From Achromobacter sp. Root83 (lineage in GTDB: Bacteria > Pseudomonadota > Gammaproteobacteria > Burkholderiales > Burkholderiaceae_B), in NCBI RefSeq assembly GCF_001428845.1, contig NZ_LMIU01000027.1:125910-189909 (forward strand): DNA of 64,000 bases. The letters are read 5' to 3'. Positions 16,428 through 21,667 of this stretch are shown here, piece after piece. The translations under genes and the position numbers were made by a program. The notes under the pieces are model-generated. The model saw only the letters and a program-made list of their open reading frames with translations. It searched no databases and was not told the DNA's origin. Numbering within the stretch: the stretch's first letter is position 1; the number at the start of each line of letters is the position of its first letter.

Positions 16428-19226
16428 CTACTGCCAGCCGTATCGGCGCACCCAGATGCTCTTGAGCAACTGAGTCAGGACGCAATAGCCGAGCAGGAGG
16501 CCCACCAGCCACGGGAAGTAGCTCCAGGGCAGCGCCTGAAGCTGAAAATACCCGGCCAGCGGCGTGAACGGCAGCAGCAGGCCCAGCGTCACCACCATCA
16601 GCGTCATCCCCATCAGCGGCCAGGAAGCGCGGCTTTGCAGGAAGGGGATACGGCGGGTGCGGATCATATGCACGATCAACGTCTGCGACAACAGGCCTTC
16701 GACAAACCAGCCCGACTGAAACAGCGTCTGGTGTTCCGGGGCGTTTGCCTGGAACACGTACCACATCAGGGCATAGGTGGCGATGTCGAAAACAGAACTG
16801 ATCGGACCGAAGAAGAGCATGAAGCGTCCCAGACCGTCAGGATCCCATTGCTGGGGCTGTTTCAGCAATTCTTCATCGACATTGTCGAACGGGATTGCCG
16901 TCTGGGAAATGTCGTACATCAAGTTCTGCAACAGCAGATGAATGGGCAGCATGGGGAGGAACGGCAGGAAGGCGCTGGCCACCAGAACCGAAAACACATT
17001 GCCGAAATTGGAGCTGGCCGTCATTTTCAGGTACTTGAGCATGTTGCAGAAGGTCTTGCGGCCTTCGATCACGCCGTCCTCCAGCACCATCAGGCTCTTT
17101 TCCAGCAGAATGATGTCCGCGGCCTCCTTCGAGATATCGACCGCCGAGTCCACCGATATGCCCACATCCGCGGCGCGCAGGGCTGGCGCATCGTTGATGC
17201 CGTCTCCCATGAATCCCACGGTGTCGCCCTGGGCCCGCAGGCTGCGCACGATGCGCTCCTTGTGAGCGGGGGTCAGGCGCGCGAACACGTTGGCCACGCG
17301 CACGGCGGCGGCCAGTTGCGCGTCGTCCATCGCGTCGATATCGGCGCCCAGGAAGACCTTGCGGACCTCGAACCCCACTTCACGGCAGACCTTCTGGGCC
17401 ACGAGTTCCACATCGCCCGTCAGCACCTTGACCTCGATGCCAGAGGCCTTCAGCGCCGCCAATGCGGGGCCGGTGGACGCCTTGGGCGGATCCAGGAACG
17501 CGATGTACCCGACCATGACCAGGCCGCATTCATCCGCGACGCCGTACGCCTGCTGCGTGGGCGGCATTTCCCTGACGCCCACCGCGATGACGCGCAGCCC
17601 GTCGCGGTTCAGGCCCGCCGTCACGCGGCGGATATCCGCGCGACGCGCGTCGGTCAGCGGATGCACCTCGCTGCCCACGCGCAGGTGCGTGCAGGCCGAC
17701 AGCATTTCCTCCAGCGCGCCCTTGCAGATCAGTTCATGATGGTCGCGGCCGTTCTCGGTTTCGTTCACCACGACCGACATGCGCCGCCGCGAGAAGTCGA
17801 AGGGGATCTCGTCGACCTTGCGGTAGCGGGCGGCCAGATCCAGCCGGCGCTCGACCTCGGCGTGCCGCAGGACCGCCACGTCCAACAGGTTCTTGAGTCC
17901 GGTCTGGTAGTAGCTGTTCAGATAGGCATAGGCCAGCACGTCGTCGCTGCTGGCGCCATAGACATCGGTATGGCGTTCCAGCACGATCCGGTCCTGCGTG
18001 AGCGTGCCGGTCTTGTCCGTGCACAGCACGTTCATCGCCCCCAGGTTCTGGATGGCGTCGAGGCGCTTGACGACGACCTTGCGCCGCGACATGCGCAAGG
18101 CGCCCTTGGCCAGCGTGGCCGTGACGATCATGGGCAGCATCTCGGGCGTCAGCCCCACCGCGATGGCCAGCGCGAACAGCAGCGCTTCCATCCAGTCGCC
18201 CTTGGTGTAGCCGTTGATCAGCATGACCACCGGCGCCATGACCAGCATGAAGCGGATCAGGATCCAGCTCACCCGGTTGATGCCCTGCTGGAACTGCGTC
18301 GGGGCGCGGGAGGCCTGCGTGACGCGGCCCGCCAACTGGCCGAAGTACGTATTCGAGCCGGTGGCGACGACCAGCGCGCTGCCGGAGCCGCTGACCACAT
18401 TGGTCCCCATGAAGGCCATGTTTTCCAGTTCCAGCGAATTACCGGTTTCCACGTGCTGGGCCATGTGCTTTTCGACGGGCAGGGATTCGCCGGTCAGCGC
18501 GGCCTGCGCGACAAACAGGTCCTTTGCGTTCAGGATGCGGCAGTCGGCGGGAACCATGTCGCCGGCGGAAAGCAGTATGACGTCGCCGGGCACCAGCTCC
18601 GCCAGCGGCACCTCCAACTGATGCGAGCCGGTCGCGTGCAGCGTGGCGCCGTAACGGCGCGGCCCATCGCCCCAGGCGGTGGCGACGGCGTCCTTGCGCA
18701 GCGCCGTGGCCGTGTTCTGCACCATCGCCTTGAGCGCTTCGGCAGCGCGGTTGGAACGCTGTTCCTGCACGAAGCGCAGCACCGTGGAAATCACGACCAT
18801 CGAACCGATGATCGCGACGGCGGTCCAGGACTGCTCCTCGCTGGCGGCCATCCGCACATCGGTCACCCATGACAGCACCGCCAGCGCGGTCAGCAGCAGG
18901 TTGAACGGATTGCGGTAGGACAGCCACAGGTGAACGGGCCAGGACAGCGGCTTTTCGTGCTCGACCTCATTGGCGCCATGGCGTTCGCGCGCGGCGCGCG
19001 CCTGCGCTTCGGACAATCCGCCCCAGCCGCTGGCGAACCGCGCAAACAGGGAATCAAAGCCCAGCCGCGAGGTTTCCAGCATGTGCTGGTTGGCGCGGCG
19101 CGAAGCGTCGGACGAGACCGCCGCGGTCTCGCCGGCCTGCTCAAGGATGGGGGCGCGGCGGAAGTGGCGGCCGGACCGCCGCAGGCCCGCGGCGGACGAA
19201 AAAAAAGATTTCAGGAACGTAAACAC
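16428..19226 (-). CDS. mgtA: Magnesium-translocating P-type ATPase
   Basis: A 932-residue P3B-type ATPase that imports Mg2+ across the inner membrane, very similar in layout to enterobacterial MgtA/MgtB. Visible are TGESLPVEKH, the phosphorylation site CTDKTGTLTQD, FDFSRRRMSVVV, FLDPPK, MGDGINDAPALRAADVGISVD, and the C-terminal helices TASSNFGNVFSVLVASAFLP and FQSGWFVEGLLSQTLIVHMIRTRR. The start is GTG 19226 with GGAG about 9 nt upstream (MFTFLKSFFSS); the longer open frame to 19370 would run through the leader hairpins. It is preceded by a 330-nt leader, a candidate leader peptide and an ACT-fold gene. Confidence 0.95.
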   Translation of the reverse strand: MFTFLKSFFSSAAGLRRSGRHFRRAPILEQAGETAAVSSDASRRANQHMLETSRLGFDSLFARFASGWGGLSEAQARAARERHGANEVEHEKPLSWPVHLWLSYRNPFNLLLTALAVLSWVTDVRMAASEEQSWTAVAIIGSMVVISTVLRFVQEQRSNRAAEALKAMVQNTATALRKDAVATAWGDGPRRYGATLHATGSHQLEVPLAELVPGDVILLSAGDMVPADCRILNAKDLFVAQAALTGESLPVEKHMAQHVETGNSLELENMAFMGTNVVSGSGSALVVATGSNTYFGQLAGRVTQASRAPTQFQQGINRVSWILIRFMLVMAPVVMLINGYTKGDWMEALLFALAIAVGLTPEMLPMIVTATLAKGALRMSRRKVVVKRLDAIQNLGAMNVLCTDKTGTLTQDRIVLERHTDVYGASSDDVLAYAYLNSYYQTGLKNLLDVAVLRHAEVERRLDLAARYRKVDEIPFDFSRRRMSVVVNETENGRDHHELICKGALEEMLSACTHLRVGSEVHPLTDARRADIRRVTAGLNRDGLRVIAVGVREMPPTQQAYGVADECGLVMVGYIAFLDPPKASTGPALAALKASGIEVKVLTGDVELVAQKVCREVGFEVRKVFLGADIDAMDDAQLAAAVRVANVFARLTPAHKERIVRSLRAQGDTVGFMGDGINDAPALRAADVGISVDSAVDISKEAADIILLEKSLMVLEDGVIEGRKTFCNMLKYLKMTASSNFGNVFSVLVASAFLPFLPMLPIHLLLQNLMYDISQTAIPFDNVDEELLKQPQQWDPDGLGRFMLFFGPISSVFDIATYALMWYVFQANAPEHQTLFQSGWFVEGLLSQTLIVHMIRTRRIPFLQSRASWPLMGMTLMVVTLGLLLPFTPLAGYFQLQALPWSYFPWLVGLLLGYCVLTQLLKSIWVRRYGWQ

Positions 19227-19557
19227 GGGAGTGCTCCGGTTATTGGTGTTGTTGTTGGAGACACGGACGACCCCGCCCGCGGCGGCTGCGCGCGGGCAGC
19301 AGCGGGCCGCGGCTTTCGGAGCGAAAGCCGTCGATCCGCCGCGTACAGGCGTGCGCAGGCGCCGGGGCAAATGTTGCCGGTGTCCGGATCGCGTCGATGG
19401 CGCGCCGGGGTGCGGAAAACGGAAGGGGAGCTAGCGGAGGAATCGGAACCGGGGCAGGCGTCGCACAGGGTGCGGGCAAGGCCGGGGATTCGTGGCTGCG
19501 GAGTCCGTCAGGACCGGGATGGCTATCCGGCCGGTCGGCTCGCAGTGAGAAGACAGG
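19227..19557 (-). promoter_or_regulatory. mgtA leader: C-rich tract and hairpins
   Basis: An untranslated 331-nt stretch between the candidate leader peptide and the mgtA GTG. In the mRNA sense the part at 19500-19381 is C-rich and G-poor (about 57 C against 28 G by my count). Downstream are two perfect hairpins: a 9-bp stem CGGCTTTCG/CGAAAGCCG with a 3-nt loop (19310-19330) and a 7-bp stem GCCCGCG/CGCGGGC (19275-19297). An unstructured AACAACAACACCAATAACC run then leads to the ribosome binding site. The pattern is compatible with Rho loading and conditional termination, as known for Salmonella mgtA. Confidence 0.5.
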
Positions 19558-19623
19558 TCAGACAGGCATGCCGGCGCCGCGCACGGGGCGCAATCGAGGT
19601 TCGGGGTCTAAGGCACTAGGCAT
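19558..19623 (-). CDS. Candidate MgtL-like leader peptide (21 residues)
   Basis: A 21-codon open frame begins at ATG 19623, with an excellent ribosome binding site (AGGAG, 5 nt before the ATG), and ends with TGA at 19558-19560. Its middle reads LDPEPRLRPVR. Enterobacterial MgtL, the peptide that senses low Mg2+ in the mgtA leader, likewise carries alternating acidic residues and prolines followed by arginines. The frame starts 29 nt after the ACT-protein stop and precedes the C-rich mgtA leader. Function is inferred from position, ribosome binding site and composition; expression is not proven. Confidence 0.6.
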   Translation of the reverse strand: MPSALDPEPRLRPVRGAGMPV

Positions 19624-19652
19624 GATCTCTCCTGGGGTGGTTGCGGCGGGCT

Positions 19653-19985
19653 TCAGGCCAGCGCGGCTTGCGCGCCGAAATGCACATGGCGCACGGCGGG
19701 GTTGGCGCTCAGGCGGCGCGCCTGCGACATCAATTCCGCCCGCAATTCGGGGGGGCAATTGACGGTGATGCAAGCCGACGCCAGATCGGGGTCTTTACCC
19801 TGATCGATCTGCACTTGCGAGACGTCCAGGCCGGCGGCCCCGAAGTCCAGGCAGATCTGCTTGCGCAAGGCTCCCAGCTCGCCGCGCGGACAGATGACCG
19901 TCAAGCGCGACGTGCCGCGGCGGCGGCCCAAAGCGGTGGCGCGGTCCACGCCGGCGCGGCGTAGGAACAAGTCGAAGAAACGCAT
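19653..19985 (-). CDS. Small ACT-fold protein resembling the MgtC C-terminal domain
   Basis: A 110-residue soluble protein. After a short basic lead (MRFFDLFLRRAG), residues about 28-105 show a beta-alpha-beta-beta-alpha-beta order: RLTVICP, ELGALRKQICLDFGAAG, LDVSQVQID, ASACITVNCP, ELRAELMSQARRLSANP, VRHVHFG. This is the ACT-like pattern of the cytoplasmic tail of MgtC; the MgtC membrane domain is absent. ATG 19985 has a strong GGAGG ribosome binding site, which beats the upstream in-frame start at 20060. It heads the mgtA transcript, so a role in Mg2+ homeostasis is likely. The MgtC resemblance is judged by eye. Confidence 0.7.
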   Translation of the reverse strand: MRFFDLFLRRAGVDRATALGRRRGTSRLTVICPRGELGALRKQICLDFGAAGLDVSQVQIDQGKDPDLASACITVNCPPELRAELMSQARRLSANPAVRHVHFGAQAALA

Positions 19986-20130
19986 AACGACCTCCATTGC
20001 AAGAATGGGGAGCGTGATCGCGAACACGTGCGAGCCGGACGGCGCCCGGGCAACGGACACGACAAACGTGCACGAGCGCTGGCGCTGCGACTAGCGGCGG
20101 TTCTGGCGGTTTACGTTGGGGAGAGTCCCG

Positions 20131-20147
20131 GCAGGCTGAAGGCCTGC
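20131..20147 (-). other. Hairpin in the 5' leader of the ACT-protein/mgtA transcript
   Basis: A perfect 6-bp stem GCAGGC/GCCTGC with a 5-nt loop lies inside the 328-nt leader upstream of the ACT-protein gene. No T-tract follows. The rest of the leader (19986-20313) shows no recognised riboswitch class. Confidence 0.35.
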
Positions 20148-20234
20148 GCTACTGACCGGGCGCGAGCCTGGTGCCTGGGATACGCCGCAACCTGCGTGAC
20201 AGGATGCGGCAGATGGAGTTCTGCGTGGTTCCTG

Positions 20235-20288
20235 TCAGACAGCGATGTCGATGCAAGATCGACTACTTTCGCCGGAATCGGTATTCAC
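20235..20288 (-). CDS. Possible upstream leader ORF (17 residues, GTG start)
   Basis: Near the 5' end of the predicted mgt transcript, AGGAG lies 8 nt before a GTG that opens a 17-codon frame (MNTDSGESSRSCIDIAV) ending at 20235. The peptide is Ser/Asp-rich, not proline-rich. The Salmonella mgtCBR leader also carries short ORFs, so this is worth recording, but the evidence is only a ribosome binding site and a frame. Confidence 0.3.
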   Translation of the reverse strand: MNTDSGESSRSCIDIAV

Positions 20289-20319
20289 GAAGACTGCTCC
20301 TGGGATGGATAACAGAAAG

Positions 20320-20348
20320 ATTTTACGCGGGTTTCTACTGATGGACAA
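20320..20348 (-). promoter_or_regulatory. Candidate promoter of the ACT-protein/mgtA operon
   Basis: In the minus sense, TTGTCC (20343-20348) and TAAAAT (20320-20325) are separated by exactly 17 bp. The start near 20313 gives a leader of about 328 nt before the ACT-protein ATG, similar in scale to the long leaders of enterobacterial mgt genes. Confidence 0.6.
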
Positions 20349-20384
20349 GGTTTATGCGCTTTTAAGGCGCGGCAGGCCGGCAGC

Positions 20385-20416
20385 GGCGGCGCCAGCCCGT
20401 GAAGGCTCGCGCCGCC
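20385..20416 (-). terminator. Hairpin after the exchanger gene (no T-tract)
   Basis: Stem GGCGGCGC/GCGCCGCC (8 bp) plus an inner AGCC/GGCT stem around a 6-nt loop lies 7 bp after the stop codon of the exchanger gene. It is very stable but lacks a T-run, so it is at best an atypical terminator separating the exchanger from the mgt promoter. Confidence 0.4.
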
Positions 20417-20423
20417 ATCGCGG

Positions 20424-21428
20424 TCAGGCGTAGAAGTGCCAGCCCAGATAACCCGCGAATACGGCATACAGGCCACCCACCGCCGACAGCGCCGGCACGC
20501 TCATGGCCGAGCGCCGGAAACGCAGCCACAGGAGCCCGATGGAGAGCATCGTGAACAGGCCCGCCGCCAGCAGGGGCGCATCCAGCAGCCACGGCGTCAT
20601 GAAGATGCCCAGCGCGCTGGGGATGGTGGCCTGGATCATCATGGCGCCAGAAATATTGGCCAGCGCCAGCCGTTCCTTGCCCTGACGCACCCATATCAGC
20701 GCATTCATGATTTCGGGCAGCTCGGTCGCCACGGGGGCCAGAAGCAAGGCCGCCACGTGCGGCGATGCGCCCATGGCCACGCCCAGCAGTTCGATCTGGT
20801 TCACGAACACATGCGAGGCCCCGGCGATCACCACCAGCGCCATGATCGTCTGGGTGGCCGCCCAGAACATGGTGGGGTTCTCATCGCGGGGACGCAGCTT
20901 GAGCGGCTCCAGGTCCTCGCAATCGGCCCTCTCCTCGTCTCGGCTGAGTTCGCGCTTGATGTACAGGCCATACGTGGCCAGGAACAGGATGCCCAGCCAG
21001 GGCTTCCAGGCAAAAGCCAGCAGCCCCAGCCCCACCTTGAAAATGAATATGCCCATGAACCAGGCCTGGTCGCGGGCCAGCCGGCGCTGGTCCGCGTTGA
21101 TACAGCCGGCTTGCGTCGGCTGCCCGCGGCGCGCGCGCCACAGCGCCAGGCCGACCACGGCGTAGGCCAGGGTCGCCAGCACCAGCGGGCCGCCCATGGC
21201 CGCGCCGACCCCGATGTCCTTCTGCTCGGGAGTGTCGCCGAAGACGACCGCCATGAAGGTGACCGCGCTTTCCGGCAAGGCAGTGCCGAACGCGGCCAGC
21301 ACGGTGCCTGTGGCGGTGGCGCCCAGGTGGAACCGGTGTCCGACCCATTCAACGCCATTGACGAAGAATTCGCACGCGACGTAGATCACTGCCGCGGACA
21401 GGAAAAACAGGAACAGGGTGAGCAACAT
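20424..21428 (-). CDS. Na+/Ca2+-exchanger family protein, probable Mn2+ exporter
   Basis: A 334-residue inner membrane protein with the two inverted alpha-repeats of the cation/Ca2+ exchanger family: AAFGTALPESAVTFMAV in the first half and APVATELPEIMNALIWV in the second. A central hydrophilic loop (ELSRDEERADCEDLEPLKLRPRDE) separates the halves. ATG 21428 is chosen because the upstream sequence, although open to 21569, is occupied by a yybP-ykoY riboswitch. That RNA responds to Mn2+ and activates Mn2+ exporters, so manganese export is a better guess than calcium exchange. Confidence 0.85.
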   Translation of the reverse strand: MLLTLFLFFLSAAVIYVACEFFVNGVEWVGHRFHLGATATGTVLAAFGTALPESAVTFMAVVFGDTPEQKDIGVGAAMGGPLVLATLAYAVVGLALWRARRGQPTQAGCINADQRRLARDQAWFMGIFIFKVGLGLLAFAWKPWLGILFLATYGLYIKRELSRDEERADCEDLEPLKLRPRDENPTMFWAATQTIMALVVIAGASHVFVNQIELLGVAMGASPHVAALLLAPVATELPEIMNALIWVRQGKERLALANISGAMMIQATIPSALGIFMTPWLLDAPLLAAGLFTMLSIGLLWLRFRRSAMSVPALSAVGGLYAVFAGYLGWHFYA

Positions 21429-21504: not shown

Positions 21505-21655
21505 CAAAGGTCTCGCCTGGCTGATCCATGCGGCGGGCGGGCCGCGTGCATGGAAACCGTTAGCGCCATGGAGTTCTGGTAACCGCTACGCGGCCCGAAC
21601 CACCAAGTCTGTTGACGCTAACTCCTTTGGGGACAAAGGATGGCTACTCCCCAAT
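21505..21655 (-). promoter_or_regulatory. yybP-ykoY (Mn2+-sensing) riboswitch
   Basis: The minus-strand RNA contains the class-defining conserved segments in order: UUGGGGAGUAGCC at the 5' end (about 21642-21654), GCGUCAACAGACUUGG (about 21604-21619), and GGCGAGACCUUUGG at the 3' end (about 21504-21517). The 3' segment is about 80 nt upstream of the exchanger ATG. A TACAAT -10-like box lies at 21668-21673, just before the predicted transcript start. The family binds Mn2+ and turns on exporter genes. Confidence 0.85.
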
Positions 21656-21667
21656 GACAGAGCGGCG

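Follow-up and report, generated by a model that had tools for sequence, protein, structure and literature searches.

The leader peptide gene trpL is a ribosome-dependent attenuator, and mgtM is a leader ORF of the Salmonella mgtCBR operon. The closest described counterpart of the locus analyzed here is mgtL, a short leader ORF with a ribosome-binding site that precedes the Mg2+ P-type ATPase gene mgtA in E. coli and Salmonella. A study on EttA reports that ribosomes dropping off at EPDP when Mg2+ is low keep Rho from terminating transcription ahead of mgtA, and it ties early acidic motifs such as [DE]x[DE] to early ribosome drop-off and to MgtL (PMC11282234). The proline codons of Salmonella mgtL are located at positions 3, 5, 7 and 9, and mgtL also responds to proline supply and EF-P (PMC6460261). 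Two mutually exclusive folds of the mgtA leader are described in a further source (PMC11552253). A text search of the literature, with subscription journals mostly outside its coverage, found no description of the leader analyzed here.

The window, i.e., the whole stretch of 64,000 nucleotides from Achromobacter sp. Root83, contains a short acid- and proline-rich frame upstream of mgtA. By analogy with mgtL we consider it probable, at roughly 60%, that this frame is a translated leader peptide gene gating mgtA by whether ribosomes finish translating it. The frame and its neighbors are:

19558..19623, minus strand: acid-proline leader ORF MPSALDPEPRLRPVRGAGMPV, 21 codons (19623..19558) followed by TGA; supported by sequence, conservation and a genome pattern search.
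19629..19633, minus strand: ribosome-binding site AGGAG, separated from the ATG of the leader ORF by 5 nt; GGAG lies within -16..-4 in 50/51 loci.
19653..19985, minus strand: solo MgtC C-terminal (ACT-like) domain gene (MgtC-C gene), 110 aa; assigned by Pfam, predicted model and PDB comparison.
16428..19226, minus strand: mgtA, Mg2+-translocating P-type ATPase with GTG start; assigned by its open frame and TIGR01524.

The leader ORF begins 29 nt downstream of the stop codon of the MgtC-C gene (19655-19653) and ends 331 nt upstream of the mgtA start codon (GTG at 19226-19224), which is preceded by GGAG and from which the mgtA frame is open. The frame length, the AGGAG site and both distances given in the preliminary description are all correct on the minus-strand reading. 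The mgtA product scores 1336 bits against TIGR01524 (cut-off 611); the Achromobacter-type ATPase scores with PRK15122, and the MgtA tree separates it widely from the E. coli protein. Of the 29 orthologues of the 110-aa protein in alignment A3, 26 are hit by Pfam MgtC_SapB_C at E<=0.1, with 4.9e-8 as the best value, whereas the window's own protein, with E 0.058, is under the cut-off. The predicted model of this protein (mean pLDDT 72, pTM 0.55) has its nearest PDB structures in the C-terminal domain of MgtC from M. tuberculosis and from P. aeruginosa. No intrinsic terminator match was found in 19220-20430 of the window, a consensus search gave no promoter match between 19220 and 20319, and no Rfam riboswitch was found in the leader. 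Rfam matches the window just once, at 21508-21665 (minus strand, 61.4 bits), with a manganese (yybP-ykoY) riboswitch that lies shortly upstream of a gene of the Na/Ca-exchanger family.

The conservation of the frame was analyzed in the 43 genomes of the genus Achromobacter and in its sister genus g31. The MgtC-C gene was matched in 136/268 family genomes, a count that includes weaker paralogue-like matches; 114 MgtC-C loci were examined, and mgtA is the next gene in 51 of them (43 Achromobacter, 8 g31). With the leader ORF sought in these 51 loci by the pattern [DE][PS][DE][PS]R, a short ORF with [DE]x[DE] follows the MgtC-C stop in 51/51, [DE][PS][DE]P is present in 50/51 and [DE]P[DE]P in 47/51; GGAG precedes the ORF in 50/51, and 46/51 are exactly 21 codons long. 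Among the MgtC-C loci lacking mgtA (within L035-L094), the leader ORF was found in 0/52 within 450 nt with the strong-SD filter on. The frame, the AGGAG-type site and the D/E-P residues, whose conservation in relatives the preliminary description had named as the check, are thus conserved, at the counts just given, across the 51 mgtA-linked loci of Achromobacter and g31, as is the proposed placement between two cistrons, with the order MgtC-C gene, leader and mgtA.

The variation within the frame is unevenly distributed. In 42 of the 43 Achromobacter sequences (L102, with 22 codons, was left out), the first, second and third codon positions contain 1, 1 and 5 variable sites in codons 2-12, and 7, 7 and 5 in codons 13-21. 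Conservation is confined to codons 1-12, where the changes in Achromobacter are mostly at third positions. Compared with four g31 sequences, the window is 0.67-0.81 identical over codons 1-12; over codons 13-21 the identity is 0.33-0.41, and over the 15 nt preceding the leader it is 0.20-0.40. Judged from these substitutions, there is protein-level constraint on codons 2-12 and none on codons 13-21. A pattern of GGAG, ATG, DP[DE/D]P codons and CCTCGA has a single match in 41/43 genus genomes, always at the leader locus, and its reversed site pattern, used as control, matches in 0/43; the two genomes missed (G006, G036) hold the ORF without GGAG or without one proline. In 1.2 Mb of DNA, which is enriched for mgtA loci and contains some genomes twice, 70 of 869 ORFs of 8-40 aa with SD and ATG carry [DE]P[DE]P within their first 12 residues. 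Only 3 of the 70 are something other than this leader, and one of these 3 is E. coli mgtL. At the level of sequence comparison, a short, well-initiated ORF with an early acid-x-acid-Pro motif upstream of mgtA is shown to be under selection.

Further features concern the RNA itself:

19585..19599, minus strand: codons 9-13 (CCTCGATTGCGCCCC), with nucleotides conserved beyond the protein and the rare codons CCT CGA; from codon counts.
19394..19409, minus strand: conserved element beginning CCCGGCGC, proposed partner of codons 9-13 by complementarity, about 175 nt downstream.
19517..19572, minus strand: predicted hairpin with the leader stop codon in its 5' arm; z -1.7 in the window sequence, weak versus control.

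The arginine codon CGA is kept in 51/51 loci and CCT precedes it in 49/51, although they are rare codons in Achromobacter mgtA (CGA 1.5% of arginine codons, CCT 6.2% of proline codons), which argues that RNA constraint is also present in the leader ORF. In the proposed long-range pairing the inner pairs are invariant, without compensatory changes, and single outer pairs are broken in 8-14 of the 43 genus sequences. These rare codons and the conserved complementary element downstream would also suit an RNA element that is conserved with the peptide being incidental and codons 9-13 being kept for base pairing; this is unlikely, as codons 2-8 vary only at third positions or by D/E exchange and the start site is kept. 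The stop-codon hairpin was found in 37/43 Achromobacter (0.55 expected) and 6/8 g31 sequences (0.61 expected) and was discarded as a shared defining feature, being too weak in both genera; the stop codon of E. coli mgtL likewise sits in a hairpin arm.

The leader peptide could also sense proline or arginine charging, or general translation slowing, rather than Mg2+. The conserved prolines and rare CGA arginine codons would fit this, as would the above-mentioned answer of Salmonella mgtL to proline supply and EF-P, but the acidic residues are conserved as much as proline and arginine and would not be needed for charging, so that we regard such a function as improbable. It is still harder to see the frame as a coupling ORF that senses nothing and merely carries ribosomes from the MgtC-C gene toward mgtA: its start 29 nt after the preceding stop would suit this, but 331 untranslated nt remain before mgtA, and the leader has its own strong ribosome-binding site and conserved residues. 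Short ORFs are common in GC-rich DNA, but a chance ORF, whose probability we consider negligible, is ruled out by the conservation in two genera and by the site pattern occurring once per genome at one locus in 41/43 genomes. The preferred reading remains that of a leader peptide gene gating mgtA.

The acid-proline ORF is not the sole leader of the operon, and in this respect the proposal of an MgtL-like switch has to be amended: the conserved frame, ribosome-binding site and acid/proline residues, together with acid-proline ORFs of other betaproteobacteria, speak for it, but a distal attenuator ORF heads the operon before the MgtC-C gene. Its features are:

20320..20348, minus strand: TTGTCC-17-TAAAAT, a match to a sigma-70-like promoter ahead of the distal leader (1 found versus a mean of 0.2 in shuffles; a consensus match only).
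20182..20309, minus strand: distal leader element as delimited by the R1 covariance model (E 1.6e-26 for its own genome, the window sequence being an R1 seed).
20235..20288, minus strand: distal leader ORF VNTDSGESSRSCIDIAV with GTG start and AGGAG; from a profile, with GTG and stop read from the sequence.
20235-20231, minus strand: region 1 (ACAGG), from helix alignment.
20200..20209, minus strand: region 2 (CCGCATCCTG), partner of region 1 and region 3, from helix alignment.
20185..20194, minus strand: region 3 (CAGGTTGCGG), from helix alignment.

The distal ORF reads VN[TSPI]D[SP]G[DE].. in most other genera and VNPDPGDS in some; ORF and start site are conserved across genera, and the profile matched 111/114 MgtC-C loci, 77 of which are its own seeds. 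Region 1 can pair with region 2, or region 2 with region 3, in mutually exclusive helices. These were analyzed in alignment A2, which holds 37 of the 114 loci (40 were picked; L062, L078 and L079 failed the start pattern). The in-ORF stem and helix 2:3 are 93.8% paired (slid controls 31-47%) with a covariation of 0.228 versus 0.153 (0/500 shuffles as high), and their 5 doubly changed pairs are not above shuffles (175/500). Helix 1:2 is 91.4% paired with a covariation of 0.203 versus 0.094 (0/500 shuffles as high); one of its pairs is CG in 16 and AU in 15 sequences, and its 2 doubly changed pairs are likewise not above shuffles (114/500). The distal ORF stop overlaps or adjoins region 1, and therefore a ribosome located there would favor helix 2:3. 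TTTTTT follows helix 2:3, as read by eye, in one of the 37 sequences (L106) and not in the window; in that one genome helix 2:3 and TTTTTT (L106:190-374, plus strand) read as an intrinsic terminator.

No Rfam match was found for the distal leader family, and R1 has matches in 133/268 family genomes. They lie directly before mgtA in G139, G148, G208 and G209, and distal-type ORFs precede mgtA in Collimonas, Herbaspirillum, Iodobacter, Deefgea and Andreprevotia. Over 250 order genomes, 15 genomes were matched, 10 of them outside the family; the ORF is present in G698, G773, G823, G056 and G788, and the other 5 look like chance. A distal-type and an acid-proline ORF are both found before mgtA in L259 and L128, and the Achromobacter operon therefore appears to follow the same tandem arrangement, its MgtC-C gene being located between the two leaders. 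In G056 (contig C308), L259 and L265 are two distal leader copies on opposite strands, about 3.7 kb apart, with mgtA after the first copy. At about 20120-20095 of the window (minus strand), in the interval from the distal attenuator to the MgtC-C gene, there is a CCGCCAGAACCGCCG block that is near-identical in several genera.

Acid-proline ORFs before other betaproteobacterial mgtA genes were initially hidden by the strong-SD filter. With this filter no [DE]P[DE]P ORF was found before mgtA in the 60 named non-Achromobacter loci among the best 80 of 430 relatives of the window MgtA (the other 20 being Achromobacter), nor in 19 other family loci (the 20th, L129, is without mgtA match), nor in 23 class loci except for L138, where an ORF beginning MDPDPAGRTAPRM lies 434 nt ahead of the open frame. 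For several loci these negatives are false negatives of the filter, and MPDPEPSPPA-type ORFs appear with the filter off. An ORF of 8-30 aa within 200 nt, with an early [DE]P and at least 3 prolines, then precedes 10/106 distinct mgtA loci, of which four are Pigmentiphaga-type and two, L120 and L218, are one genome; shuffles gave a mean of 0.73 (at most 4 in any of 100), and there is one such ORF on the opposite strand and none in the stretch from -400 to -200. These ORFs include MPDPEHPPPA (Pigmentiphaga), MPDPEPSPPA (Azonexus MAG), MPDPEYRLPA (Aquabacterium), MPTDPDPHQPPPE (Propionivibrio MAG) and MNPDPQPRKPPS (genus g36), and MTDPEHRLPA (Rhodocyclaceae MAG) was found by eye. They are located about 70-135 nt upstream of mgtA and end in a covarying hairpin, which in 13 aligned leaders is formed by the last codons and the stop directly before the mgtA ribosome-binding site. 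The members of this alignment (A4) were chosen by pattern except for L196, L214, L219 and L233, which were chosen by eye, and its statistics therefore carry selection bias: 94.8% of cells are paired (slid controls 34-49%), 7/9 pairs are changed on both sides, covariation is 0.514 versus 0.209 (0/500 shuffles as high), and further pair types are not clearly above shuffles (55/500). In L262/L286 the frame of the proximal leader is lost and in L212 about 100 nt are inserted, so that these leaders look decayed.

A single homologous family uniting the Achromobacter leader with these other proximal leaders was considered and found to be unsupported by the covariance model R2 and by the MgtA tree. 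R2, which models those other leaders, gave no match to the leaders of Achromobacter, g31 or E. coli; over 260 order genomes it matches 12 at E<=0.5, before mgtA in G681, G056, G722 and G788 (the frame being lost in G788), in a manner resembling chance in G787, G822, G670, G824, G845 and G850, and further in G741 and G861. Among the 85 MgtA rows of the tree, the pumps of Achromobacter and g31 group in one clade (100/100), and 12 rows with other acid-proline leaders fall into another (96/95) together with 19 rows not so labelled; the E. coli neighbor of the Achromobacter clade is flagged as a long branch. The preliminary description had left it between an independent and an ancient counterpart of mgtL. 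The separate MgtA clades stand on one side, yet the E. coli and Achromobacter leaders share P9-R10-x-R12 and CCT CGA, and as judged from these data both several gains and one old origin with losses are possible.

Taken together, the proximal leader is real and conserved and is probably a ribosome-read switch, with Mg2+ sensing as its most likely function. That it gates mgtA is suggested because codons 2-12 are constrained, [DE]x[DE] is found throughout the mgtA-linked loci, mgtA is adjacent, no terminator was seen, and acid-proline ORFs with a covarying hairpin occur in other betaproteobacteria; counted against it are the position of the motif at codons 6-9, the lack of a Magnesium-II match, the broken outer pairs, the weak stop hairpin and the lack of an R2 match. 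In low cytoplasmic Mg2+, as published for enterobacteria, ribosomes would drop off or slow at D6-P7-E8-P9, which would make codons 9-13 available for an ON fold in which they pair with the conserved CCGGCGC element located some 175 nt further downstream. Full translation would leave the leader OFF; as no intrinsic terminator was seen, this would probably be brought about by Rho. The acid-proline ORF would constitute the second checkpoint of the operon and the distal leader ORF with its competing helices the first, so that the pump could be switched apart from the MgtC-C gene. Both leaders are probably ribosome-read attenuators that respond to Mg2+ as mgtL does. We give even odds to the wider view that betaproteobacterial Mg operons possess a tandem system, a distal Ser/acid-rich attenuator ORF and a proximal acid-proline ORF acting as a two-step ribosome-read Mg2+ gate, which arose outside or long before enterobacterial mgtL. 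If so, Mg2+ sensing by an early acid-proline peptide would not be an enterobacterial speciality, many natural variants would separate peptide from RNA constraints, the generality and perhaps repeated evolution of such sensors would become directly testable, and in the distal attenuator there would be a widespread family of leaders that Rfam lacks.

Among the known systems, the distal leader resembles a trpL-type attenuator in that its ORF stops at region 1 and is followed by competing 1:2 and 2:3 helices; it differs in that no amino-acid operon is present and a U-run after helix 2:3 is found in 1/37 aligned sequences. The operon also resembles Salmonella mgtCBR, in which an MgtC-type domain gene and an Mg2+ ATPase gene lie in one operon with leader ORFs, among them mgtP (PMC6460261), whereas Achromobacter has the MgtC C-terminal domain only and one leader ORF between the genes; the two are likened by description. 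The copper uORF CruR of Bordetella pertussis is a case of betaproteobacterial, translation-dependent Rho control of a metal operon between cistrons, but it encodes a DUF2946 protein of 145 residues that contains CxxC and RAPP, and it acts on copper, not Mg2+ (PMC9426467). In comparison with mgtL, which is located at the 5' end, the Achromobacter leader lies between two genes, the mgtA leader is longer, an extra distal leader ORF heads the operon, and the acid-proline motif occupies codons 6-9 instead of codons 2-5 in MgtL. Rfam RF01056 (Magnesium-II) scored 125.8 bits for the E. coli control and matched neither the window nor any of seven other loci. Although it falls outside RF01056, the leader may act in the manner of mgtL, and the two ORFs share the early alternation of acidic residues and prolines, followed by P9-R10-x-R12 with the codons CCT CGA at positions 9-10.
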